Below are positions 4,685-43,591 of a DNA stretch of 64,000 nucleotides, piece after piece. The first letter of the stretch is position 1. The number at the start of each line of letters is the position of its first letter. Where the stretch lies: contig NZ_CAKMRU010000001.1 of assembly GCF_928368155.1 (NCBI RefSeq), positions 874,001 to 938,000 of the forward strand, written 5' to 3'. The position numbers and the translations under genes are program-made. The notes under the pieces were generated by a model. The model was not told the origin of the DNA. It ran no database searches and was given only the letters and a program-made list of their open reading frames with translations. Origin of the DNA: Anaerococcus ihuae. GTDB taxonomy: Bacteria; Bacillota; Clostridia; Tissierellales; Peptoniphilaceae.

Positions 4685-4706
4685 AAGTTAGGATTTATCC
4701 TAACTT
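4685..4706 (-). terminator. Distal copy of the lepA terminator hairpin
   Basis: Palindrome AGTTAGGAT/ATCCTAACT followed on the minus strand by TTTTTATTTG. This copy keeps the U-tract. Its near-duplicate lies at 4876-4895, with a 169-bp element between them. Confidence 0.75.
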
Positions 4707-4875
4707 AGACTGTCGACAAACTAAAACTTTTCCCATTTCGACCGAGTGAAACGAGCGGAGAAATCTCATGGGATCTCTCCATGCGTTCGTTTCACTCACT
4801 TAGTCGAGATGGTACATAGATTAATTTTTATTTTAAAATAAAATATTATATACTTTCAAACTTTGTCTACGCTTT
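4707..4875 (-). repeat. Terminator-nested palindromic element, divergent copy C (169 bp)
   Basis: The termini AGACTGTCGACAAA and TTTGTCTACGCTTT match the ends of the 196-bp elements at 24638 and 43376 and form imperfect terminal inverted repeats. The interior differs. It holds a long hairpin whose arms pair CCATTTCGAC with GTCGAGATGG, GAGTGAAACGA with TCGTTTCACTC and GGAGAAATC with GATCTCTCC, followed by about 50 nt of A+T. The element is bracketed by two near-identical terminator hairpins downstream of lepA. I infer a non-autonomous mobile or REP-like repeat; no coding capacity is visible. Confidence 0.7.
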
Positions 4876-4895
4876 AGCTAGGACTTATCCTAACT
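4876..4895 (-). terminator. Proximal hairpin copy after lepA, without U-tract
   Basis: AGCTAGGA/TCCTAACT hairpin right at the lepA stop. It differs from the 4685-4706 hairpin by two plus-strand T-to-C changes. In the minus-strand RNA the one that falls in the stem becomes a G-U pair, so the stem is preserved. It is followed by the element, not by a U-run. Confidence 0.65.
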
Positions 4896-24035: not shown

Positions 24036-24449
24036 TTACTGATCCATAATTTCTGATAAGTTCACTTCAACATCACCAATATAATCGTTCCAATTATCCA
24101 AATCCCAGATTTCTATGTTTGAATTATTACCGATTATAATAGCCTCTTTATCTAAATTAGCATAGTCGCGTAATTGCTTATTTAATAAAACTCGCCCTTG
24201 TTTATCCAAATAAGCCTTGATAGTGGAAGAAAAAAACAATCTTTTCATCGCCCTATTGTTTTTGTTTTGGTAGGATAATTCTTCGTACTTTTTGGCACGT
24301 TTTTCAAATTCTTCAATAGTGTATAAAACTAATGAACGTTCTGGGCCCTTGGTTACATAAAATTCATTTCCAAGATCATCTCTAAATTCACTTGGCATCA
24401 TTATTCTATTTTTAGAATCTAATTTATGAATGAATTCTCCTAGAAACAT
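24036..24449 (-). CDS. mraZ: Transcriptional regulator MraZ
   Basis: SpoVT/AbrB-fold DNA-binding protein that regulates the division cluster it heads. It has the two half-motifs of the family: DSKNRIMMPSEFR in the first repeat and LDKQGRVLLNKQLRDYA in the second. The ATG at 24449 (MFLGEFIHKLD) follows AAGGTGGG. A reading from 24476 would start inside the operator repeats. The GTGG boxes at 24452-24476 overlap the translation initiation region, so binding there should autoregulate the operon. Confidence 0.96.
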   Translation of the reverse strand: MFLGEFIHKLDSKNRIMMPSEFRDDLGNEFYVTKGPERSLVLYTIEEFEKRAKKYEELSYQNKNNRAMKRLFFSSTIKAYLDKQGRVLLNKQLRDYANLDKEAIIIGNNSNIEIWDLDNWNDYIGDVEVNLSEIMDQ

Positions 24450-24451
24450 GA

Positions 24452-24476
24452 CCCACCTTCTACCACTTATTTCCAC
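24452..24476 (-). promoter_or_regulatory. Putative MraZ operator: three GTGGN boxes at 10-bp spacing
   Basis: On the minus strand GTGGA, GTGGT and GTGGG occur with exact 10-bp periodicity (plus-strand TCCAC 24472-24476, ACCAC 24462-24466, CCCAC 24452-24456). Known MraZ sites are short G-rich direct repeats with 5-nt spacers next to mraZ. The last box also serves as part of the ribosome binding site. Confidence 0.75.
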
Positions 24477-24485
24477 TTCACATAT

Positions 24486-24514
24486 ATTCTATACCAAAAT
24501 CTCTAAATTGTAAA
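24486..24514 (-). promoter_or_regulatory. Promoter of the mraZ division cluster
   Basis: Minus strand TTTACA (24509-24514), 17-bp spacer, TAGAAT (24486-24491), directly upstream of the three GTGG boxes. From 24515 to about 24619 I see only A/T tracts, with no gene. Confidence 0.65.
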
Positions 24515-24619
24515 GGATTAAAAAATTTATTTTTTTGAAATTTTTTTAATTTTTTTCAAAATATTCATATTTTTTTAAAAAAGTGGTATGAATTCCCAAA
24601 ATAAAAAATTTAAAGAAAA

Positions 24620-24637
24620 AAACAGCCTAGGCCGTTT
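24620..24637 (-). terminator. Distal copy of the lgt terminator hairpin
   Basis: In the minus-strand RNA AAACGGC pairs with GCUGUUU (one G-U), followed by a run of T and then TTTCTTT. This copy carries the U-tract. The partner hairpin is at 24834-24851. Confidence 0.75.
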
Positions 24638-24833
24638 CAGACTGTTGACAAAGTATACAAATCCTCATGCTAAGAATATCATACGAAAAAATTGATTTGA
24701 TTTCAAATTTTAAAATTCGTCAAAAAACGCACTGTTTGAGCGTTAGCGAGTTTGCGTTTTTAGAATTTTGGAATTTAGAAATCAACAATTTTTGAAGTCA
24801 GATATTCGTGCTTGAGGGTTTGTCTACGTTCTG
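24638..24833 (-). repeat. Terminator-nested palindromic element, copy A (196 bp)
   Basis: Nearly identical to 43376-43571 and exactly the same length. The whole unit is a long imperfect palindrome: CCTCATGCTAAGAATATC pairs with GATATTCGTGCTTGAGG, GATTTCAAATTTTAAAATTC with GAATTTTGGAATTTAGAAATC-type bases, and AAAAACGCA with TGCGTTTTT around a loop of about 20 nt. The ends CAGACTGTTGACAAA and TTTGTCTACGTTCTG are imperfect inverted repeats. It lies between two copies of the lgt terminator hairpin. It has no ORF; MITE- or REP-like by inference. Confidence 0.85.
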
Positions 24834-24851
24834 AAACAGCCGAAGCTGTTT
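24834..24851 (-). terminator. Proximal lgt terminator hairpin without U-tract
   Basis: In the minus-strand RNA AAACAGC-UUCG-GCUGUUU, a 7-bp stem with a stable UUCG loop, overlapping the lgt stop codon. It runs directly into the repeat element instead of a U-tract. Confidence 0.7.
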
Positions 24852-25611
24852 AATTTTTTCCATATGGTTTTAAGTTTATATTTTTATATTTTACAAACAA
24901 ATAAATTCCAACAAGTAAATAAATTACACTTGTAAGCTGAGCCATTCTTATTTGTCCTATCATTAATGAATCTGTTCTAAGTCCTTCTACAAAAAACCTC
25001 AATATTCCATAGGTCATAAAATAAATTCCTGTTTGGATTCCTTTTTTAGGATTTTTTTTCCTATAATTTATTAAAAATAAAAATATCAAAAAATCTCCAA
25101 TTGATTCATATAAAAATGTAGGATGAACTTTTACTCCATCGACTATTATTGCCCAAGGTAAATTTGTTGGCGTGCCATGAGCTTCTCCATTTACAAAATT
25201 ACCCCATCTTCCTATAGCTTGCCCAAAGGCTAAAGATGGTGCCATTACATCTAAAATATCTATCAATGGAATTTCTTTTTTCTTGGCGTAAAAATATAGG
25301 CCAATAATTGCAAATAAAATTCCACCATGGATAGCAAGTCCGCCTGCTCGGAAATTTAAAATTTGAATAGGATCATTTTTGTACATATCCCATTCAAAAA
25401 TTACATACCAAGCTCTTGCTCCTATTATTGCAAGTGGCAAAATTACAAAAAGCATATCGTAAATAAAATCTTCGTCAAATCCTCTTTTTACAAATTCTTT
25501 TTGAGCAAATTTCGCTCCAATTAATACTCCTGTAATTATTAAAATGGCATACCAATAAATATCTATTCCAAATAAGGAGAAAGCCACCCTATCTATATCA
25601 AAATTTAACAT
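24850..25611 (-). CDS. lgt: Prolipoprotein diacylglyceryl transferase Lgt
   Basis: Membrane enzyme that attaches diacylglycerol to the lipobox cysteine of prolipoproteins. It has about seven hydrophobic segments and contains the HGG motif (GGLAIHGGILFA) and the signature GRWGNFVNGEAHG. The 253 residues are complete. It starts one base beyond the yebC stop. The TlpA-like lipoprotein at 54.1 kb is a probable client. The stop codon lies inside the proximal terminator hairpin. Confidence 0.96.
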   Translation of the reverse strand: MLNFDIDRVAFSLFGIDIYWYAILIITGVLIGAKFAQKEFVKRGFDEDFIYDMLFVILPLAIIGARAWYVIFEWDMYKNDPIQILNFRAGGLAIHGGILFAIIGLYFYAKKKEIPLIDILDVMAPSLAFGQAIGRWGNFVNGEAHGTPTNLPWAIIVDGVKVHPTFLYESIGDFLIFLFLINYRKKNPKKGIQTGIYFMTYGILRFFVEGLRTDSLMIGQIRMAQLTSVIYLLVGIYLFVKYKNINLKPYGKN

Positions 25612-43354: not shown

Positions 43355-43375
43355 AAGCAAGTCCAAAACTTGCTT
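43355..43375 (-). terminator. Distal copy of the pcp terminator hairpin
   Basis: AAGCAAGT-CCAAA-ACTTGCTT. On the minus strand it is followed by ATTTTTTTG. The right-hand copy at 43572-43591 is an exact duplicate of its core. The stretch 43287-43354 upstream of the ABC gene is A/T-rich with nothing else seen. Confidence 0.75.
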
Positions 43376-43571
43376 CAGACTGTTGATAAAGTATACAAAT
43401 CCTCATGCTAAGAATATCATACGGAAAAATTGATTTGATTTCAAATTTTAAAATTCGTCAAAAAACGCACTGTTTGAGCGTTAGCGAGTTTGCGTTTTTA
43501 GAATTTTGGAATTTAGAAATCAACAATTTTTGAAGTCCGATATTCGTGCTTGAGGGTTTGTATACGCTCTG
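43376..43571 (-). repeat. Terminator-nested palindromic element, copy B (196 bp)
   Basis: Same length as copy A at 24638-24833, with only a handful of single-base differences that I can see (for example GTTGATAAAG versus GTTGACAAAG, ATACGG versus ATACGA, TATACGCTCTG versus TCTACGTTCTG). Same orientation relative to its upstream gene (pcp). Bracketed by duplicated pcp terminator hairpins. No ORF. Confidence 0.85.
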
Positions 43572-43591
43572 AGCAAGTCCAAAACTTGCTT
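43572..43591 (-). terminator. Proximal pcp terminator hairpin without U-tract
   Basis: AGCAAGT-CCAAA-ACTTGCT, identical in the core to the hairpin at 43355-43375. In the pcp transcript it comes first and leads into the repeat element. Confidence 0.7.

Follow-up and report, generated by a model that had tools for sequence, protein, structure and literature searches.

The element downstream of lgt and its flanking hairpins

The stretch of DNA analysed here, referred to as the window, comprises 64,000 nucleotides of Anaerococcus ihuae contig NZ_CAKMRU010000001.1 (positions 874,001 to 938,000). It carries, after the host gene lgt, a palindromic element of 196 bp that is located between two copies of a hairpin, identical at 15 of 18 positions, of which only the copy on the mraZ side is followed by a U-run (Table 1). 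As lgt is encoded on the minus strand, the order in its transcript would be stop codon (overlapping the first hairpin), hairpin, element, second hairpin and U-run. This arrangement had been proposed from the sequence alone in an earlier reading of the window (the original prediction), the order and exact coordinates of which were confirmed.

Both hairpins were shown to fold as RNA (-6.8 and -7.6 kcal/mol), and the 248-nt region folded here was far more stable than shuffled sequences in both senses (z=-9.8 and -9.4), in agreement with the claim that the element pairs along most of its length. A comparison of positions 24300-25000 with Rfam returned nothing at gathering score, the single sub-threshold match reaching 22.8 bits against a gathering score of 41.

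Table 1. Positions in the window of the lgt-associated element, its flanking features and two further family members
Feature	Position	Strand	Sequence
Type-A non-autonomous element, CAG...CTG, 196 bp, palindromic	24638..24833	+	
Left tip; matches that of the IS1182-family insertion sequence in L147 at 17/18 positions	24638..24655	+	CAGACTGTTGACAAAGTA
Right tip, read inward; 16/18, counted by eye, against the right tip of that insertion sequence, CAGAGCGTCGACAAACCC	24816..24833	-	CAGAACGTAGACAAACCC
Hairpin copy, lgt-distal, on the mraZ side, followed by the U-run in the lgt transcript; presumed regenerated terminator	24620..24637		AAACAGCCTAGGCCGTTT
Hairpin copy, lgt-proximal, overlapping the stop codon, no U-run behind	24834..24851		AAACAGCCGAAGCTGTTT
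U-run of the lgt terminator, A-rich on the + strand	24612..24619	-	
lgt, host gene; its terminator is the insertion target	24850..25611	-	
Second type-A copy, 196 bp, flanked by identical 20-bp hairpins (43356-43375 and 43572-43591)	43376..43571	+	
Type-B element, 171 bp, after lepA, between hairpins 17/19 identical (4687-4705 and 4877-4895)	4706..4876	+	

A family of elements with common tips in Anaerococcus

Comparison of the element with the genome to which the window belongs (the window genome) yielded 27 BLAST matches, some of which represent halves or reverse matches of one copy. The other near-full-length copies exhibited 83-98% identity to the lgt element, and each well-preserved copy was shown to have its own, different hairpin on both sides. 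Further elements with different interiors and the same ends were retrieved by means of the 16-base left tip, the tips common to the Anaerococcus elements being CAGACTGTTGACAAA and CAGAGCGTAGACAAA. These elements were designated here as type A (194-201 bp), type B (161-172 bp, extended to 253-258 bp where an extra block is present) and type C (~320 bp, i.e. type A with an insert of ~130 bp). Element matches were obtained in 27 of 61 genomes in a search of relatives, in several cases to the central core only, and a degenerate tip pattern was detected at 114 sites in eight congeners, compared with one site for the reversed pattern.

The elements are short and multicopy, lack a transposase (196 bp being too short to encode one) and share their tips with an autonomous insertion sequence (IS) described below, these being the properties by which a miniature inverted-repeat transposable element (MITE) is recognized. 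The type-A core motif, GCAAACTCGC..GCTCAAACAGTGC, was also observed without adjoining CAGACTG tips (L036, L038, L040, L042 and L051-L053), this tipless form, with altered flanking stems, being present both in other congeners and in further families of the order.

Duplication of the flanking hairpin

The flanks of 84 elements of 120-420 bp were compared, each element having both tips with no more than three mismatches and the length range excluding elements with nested ISs. Twenty-nine of these were derived from 42 loci of the window genome and 55 from 80 fetched stretches (L227-L306), 25 of which, including six of another genus (L300-L305), provided no counted element. The element's own flanks were shown to be duplicated at a score of at least 10 in 64 cases, compared with 9 of 6972 swapped pairs. 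The lgt element itself scores 9, since its hairpin copies differ at three of 18 bases. As the duplication recurs at unrelated loci with different hairpins, it is not attributable to chance.

Among the 67 elements with a score of at least 9, including the lgt element, the duplication measures 15-26 bp, and the identity of the hairpin copies was 93% at the same locus, compared with 32% for copies from different loci. A stem of 6 bp or more was present in 53 left copies, in 57 right copies and in at least one copy of 61 elements, the corresponding number for random window stretches being 112 of 3350. The right copy was followed by a T-run in 56 of the 67 elements (baseline 18%) and the left copy preceded by an A-run in 57 (no baseline for A), a pattern as in bidirectional terminators. 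This leading A and trailing T represent the strongest positional signals at the ends of the duplication, and the target otherwise exhibits no sequence consensus. In L230 and L252, the two hairpin copies appeared by eye to lie in opposite orientations, as would result from a flip of the palindrome after insertion.

Divergence of stems and loops

The observation that the two lgt hairpins differ at a few bases and nevertheless fold had been taken in the original prediction to suggest maintenance at the RNA level. Fewer changes would be expected in stems than in loops had the hairpins been retained for their ability to pair. Among 71 rows with a score of at least 4, 64 of which have a stem, the hairpin copies differed at 72 of 936 stem positions (7.7%) and 23 of 291 loop positions (7.9%), with one double change (P=0.90; loci pooled, outer hairpin not separated). 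The rates being equal, RNA-level maintenance is not supported.

The same result bears on the suggestion that the element constitutes an RNA regulatory module ending the lgt transcript, whose two hairpins and long stem would be kept for 3′-end control or RNA stability. Such a module would be in keeping with the very stable fold in both senses and with the presence of the lgt insertion at one position and in one orientation in four species, in which all eight hairpins still pair, with two stem changes that are G-U-compatible in the lgt sense (judged by eye and too few to weigh). It is at odds with the equal divergence of stems and loops, with the occurrence of copies at many loci with different hairpins and with the empty sites in close congeners described below. 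No positive evidence beyond stable folding points to this explanation, which is improbable and is not needed to account for the locus.

An IS1182-family insertion sequence with matching ends

The degenerate-tip search of the eight congeners revealed five identical unpaired tips in a single genome (G028), marking five ISs of ~1.6 kb. These ISs are 99.4-100% identical, and each is flanked by a terminator hairpin in duplicate, the hairpin differing from one IS to the next; in one copy, the transposase frame is interrupted by a stop. The transposase was assigned to the IS1182 family (NF033551, 435.3 bits against a cut-off of 270) and contains the Pfam domains DUF772, DDE_Tnp_1_6 and DDE_Tnp_1. The tips of the lgt element correspond to those of the IS at 17 of 18 (left) and, counted by eye, 16 of 18 positions (right), with the asymmetry between left and right being kept. 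The transposase with matching ends, for which a search had been recommended, was thus identified.

Transposase matches were obtained in 18 of 31 genomes of the genus, many of these being weak or broken. The one near-full-length IS1182 transposase copy found in the window genome (L107, 964-2467, on G000:C2; 94% complete) has an open frame with 91% identity and is bordered by a hairpin on either side, with its right end missing. Lacking this end, the L107 IS could act only in trans, by which route the elements of the window genome were presumably mobilized. In A. octavius, an IS1182 copy (L171/L341) was observed with two different hairpins on its sides, possibly as a recombinant between copies.

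An IS30-family mobilizer had been considered first, as IS1630 is reported to duplicate hairpins. According to the title of a 1999 paper, seen in a reference list, IS1630 reportedly duplicates inverted repeats, which already qualifies the earlier statement that no described family shows such an arrangement. In the accessible text of a further paper, four of seven complete IS1630 copies in Mycoplasma fermentans have duplications of 16, 23, 25 and 26 bp (PMC3317919), and a tip-like 16-mer, three substitutions away, was located near IS30 fragments in G004 and G006. The IS30 search, however, which covered the window genome and the 31 genus genomes, returned no transposase match in the former. None of the 30 IS30 loci fetched from congeners has a tip with two substitutions or fewer, and the five copies in G018 have different ends and, by eye, no hairpin duplication. 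Given also that an IS1182-family IS with matching tips exists, it is very improbable that the MITE was mobilized by an IS1630-type element of the IS30 family.

Related insertion sequences beyond the genus

A scan of a species-genome collection identified 160 relatives, of which 80 were kept and 58 examined, the remaining 22 loci being mostly near contig ends or partial matches. The 80 relatives kept were derived from Peptoniphilus, Clostridium, Cohnella, Paenibacillus, Oceanobacillus, Bacillus, several uncultured lineages and others. The 58 loci examined belong mostly to other Firmicutes, with three from Anaerococcus. Both tips were present in 55 of the 58 loci and a duplication of 17-41 bp in 45. 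Of these 45 duplications, 43 are perfect and 38 have a T-run after the right copy, and all 45 contain a stem of 6 bp or more; among swapped pairs, 0 of 2970 showed a duplication. Ten of the tip-bearing loci were scored as misses, two of which (L336 and L365) were shown in a looser scan to carry long perfect hairpin repeats with shifted boundaries.

The position of the duplication relative to the palindrome was similar for ISs and MITEs: its midpoint lies no more than 0.5 nt from the dyad axis for 44 of 45 ISs and for 51 of the 59 MITEs with a clear palindrome. For the ISs, the length of the duplication was correlated with the span of the palindrome (r=0.59).

Empty sites and repeated insertion at the same terminator

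The lgt gene was located in 30 of the 31 genus genomes. The element occupies an identical place and orientation in the window genome (G000), G007 (interior masked), G001 (shortened) and G030. G013 and G003 have empty sites with one hairpin and a T-run, lgt itself matching in two pieces in both; this scoring covered the closer congeners, the intergenic sequence of more distant ones being diverged. For pcp and lepA, seven genomes were compared per gene. At the pcp site (window copy 43376-43571), G007 is empty and carries a single copy of the same hairpin, whereas G003, likewise empty, has a different one, namely that imperfectly duplicated in G008. At the lepA site (window copy 4706-4876), the element is absent from both G030 and G023, each of which has one hairpin.

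Accordingly, empty sites already holding two tandem hairpins, which had been named as evidence against a duplication upon insertion, were not encountered among the six sites at these three loci, all of which have a single hairpin. This finding, together with the perfect duplication in 43 of 45 ISs, makes it most unlikely that tandem terminator hairpins came first and that the element merely inserted between them, even if tandem terminators do occur in bacteria.

The lepA terminator is occupied by type B in G000 and by type A or C in G007, G003, G001 and G013, indicating that it was hit at least twice. At pcp, where G000 has type A and both G001 and G013 have type C, a repeat hit is possible.

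Proposed mechanism of insertion

The shared tips, the duplication of the hairpin, its centring on the dyad, the empty sites with a single hairpin and the IS1182-family transposase with the same ends and target behaviour, as read from sequence comparison, together make it likely that the element after lgt is a MITE mobilized in trans by an IS1182-family transposase, the target of which would be chosen by structure, i.e. as a palindrome. A probability of roughly 0.88 is assigned to this interpretation. Of the two possibilities raised in the original prediction, a MITE that targets terminators with an unusually long duplication is therefore strongly supported.

In the proposed mechanism, the transposase would bind the ~16-bp tips of the element, and the target would be a palindrome able to form a hairpin or cruciform, in practice an intrinsic terminator, with almost no sequence consensus. 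Joining of the element would be symmetrical with respect to the dyad, each strand being attacked at the outer (5′) foot of the palindrome, after which gap repair would copy the whole hairpin to both sides. The target duplication would be variable in length (15-26 bp for MITEs and 17-41 bp for ISs), partly tracking the length of the palindrome. The A-run and the T-run would each stay beside a hairpin on the outer sides of the insertion, so that transcripts entering from either side should still have a hairpin and U-run downstream, with hardly any harm expected from the insertion.

A number of observations weigh against this interpretation. Copies without duplicated hairpins, which the original prediction had regarded as contrary evidence, do exist, as 20 of the 84 counted elements have no ungapped duplication at a score of at least 10, but most elements have one. 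Here and among the related IS loci, the missing duplications are explained in part by indels, by a masked flank or by mis-set tips, and in part are unexplained; among the counted elements, tips look mis-set by eye in L108, L111 and L112, and L229 has a masked flank. The counted elements also include orthologous insertions (e.g. L231 and L250, in which hairpin and tips are common to two species) and are not all independent. Among the 67 MITE duplications, eight have no 6-bp palindrome centred inside, and duplication length is only weakly correlated with palindrome span (r=0.18). As regards the ISs, 11 of the 58 related loci belong to one Clostridium carboxidivorans genome, and ten of the 55 tip-bearing loci have no duplication with a score of at least 12. 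Furthermore, the type A and B cores have no clear homology to the IS beyond the tips, and the right end is missing from the L107 transposase copy, the only near-full-length one detected in the window genome.

With somewhat less confidence, the same behaviour probably extends to a broad Firmicutes clade of IS1182-family ISs and their MITEs, in which structure-guided, dyad-centred insertion would duplicate a whole terminator hairpin of any length or sequence. Terminators would then represent a safe harbour that is regenerated on both sides and, as at lepA, is hit repeatedly across species; cruciforms are possibly needed for this process.

Comparison with known elements

Targeting of terminator hairpins has been described within the IS1182 family, contrary to the earlier statement that no such family was known. 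Staphylococcal IS1272 (TnSha1) was placed in this family (PMC4923244) and, according to the accessible parts of two papers, targets inverted repeats and terminator hairpins without a sequence consensus (PMC4923244, PMC5678879). TnSha1/IS1272 was found to delete hairpins, several of which are confirmed terminators (PMC4923244), and IS1272 to replace inverted repeats with no target duplication (PMC5678879). In the model presented in the latter paper, duplication of the whole hairpin is drawn as a theoretical pathway 'b', the IS1272 data fitting hairpin loss. Siguier is said in both papers to report palindromic targets for some IS1182 members (PMC4923244, PMC5678879), the reference given in PMC4923244 being Siguier (2015). 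The Anaerococcus elements resemble IS1272 in targeting inverted repeats without a sequence consensus, but differ from it in that the whole hairpin is duplicated (64 of 84 MITEs and 45 of 58 related IS loci) rather than lost. They differ from IS1630 in transposase family, the latter being an IS30-type element.

Short non-autonomous partners of an IS1182-family IS have likewise been described in Methanosarcina acetivorans, where the ISMac2-related MITEs measure 160 and 169 bp (PMC3852290). They are listed there with 26/4 and 25/0, taken here as the sizes of inverted and direct repeats, and hairpin targeting is not mentioned in the accessible part of that paper. Whole-hairpin duplication by an IS1182-family element, as an observation, was not found in the literature searched, including the accessible text of PMC3281130, PMC10309648 and PMC8868234; since subscription reviews and ISfinder lay outside this search, priority is uncertain.

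There is good support for the existence of a family of MITEs and ISs whose target duplication is uncommon and set by structure. Most transposons generate a short target duplication of fixed length, and a duplication of variable length whose centre coincides with the target's axis of symmetry points towards DNA shape, not sequence, as the feature recognized. These elements would offer a ready test system for cruciform-directed transposition, as well as a contrast within the IS1182 family, IS1272 losing the same kind of target. If the proposed mechanism is correct, it realizes what the model for IS1272 had shown as no more than a possible pathway. It would also account for the nested-terminator arrangements in Anaerococcus, and illustrates how intergenic palindromes could build up at gene ends with little expected cost to termination.

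Other mobile elements nested within the family

An IS110-family element was observed at an identical internal site (GATCTCT / TCTCC) of three type-B elements of the window genome, namely L088 (element 1003-2766), L089 and L106; L155, a fourth locus compared, has no match to the IS110 junction strings. In L088, the IS110 transposase lies between the tips and hairpins, as would be expected if it were the mobilizer of the family, but type-B elements without IS110 carry the same tips, and this explanation is exceedingly unlikely. IS110 was rejected as the outer element, being nested at the one internal type-B site, and appears to target the MITE itself. In Coxiella, an IS1111 element recognizes a palindrome inside QMITE2, according to the accessible text (PMC10969869); the likeness to the present system concerns only this nested IS110, not the mobility of the element itself.

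The contig ends of G013 were considered as collapsed ISs and rejected as such, as they carry type-B halves. By eye, an IS3/IS150-like element with its frame in pieces was found nested in another type-B element (L104, G000:C1:358200-362100), and the start of a frame resembling an IS110-type transposase was observed after lgt in G018 (L206).
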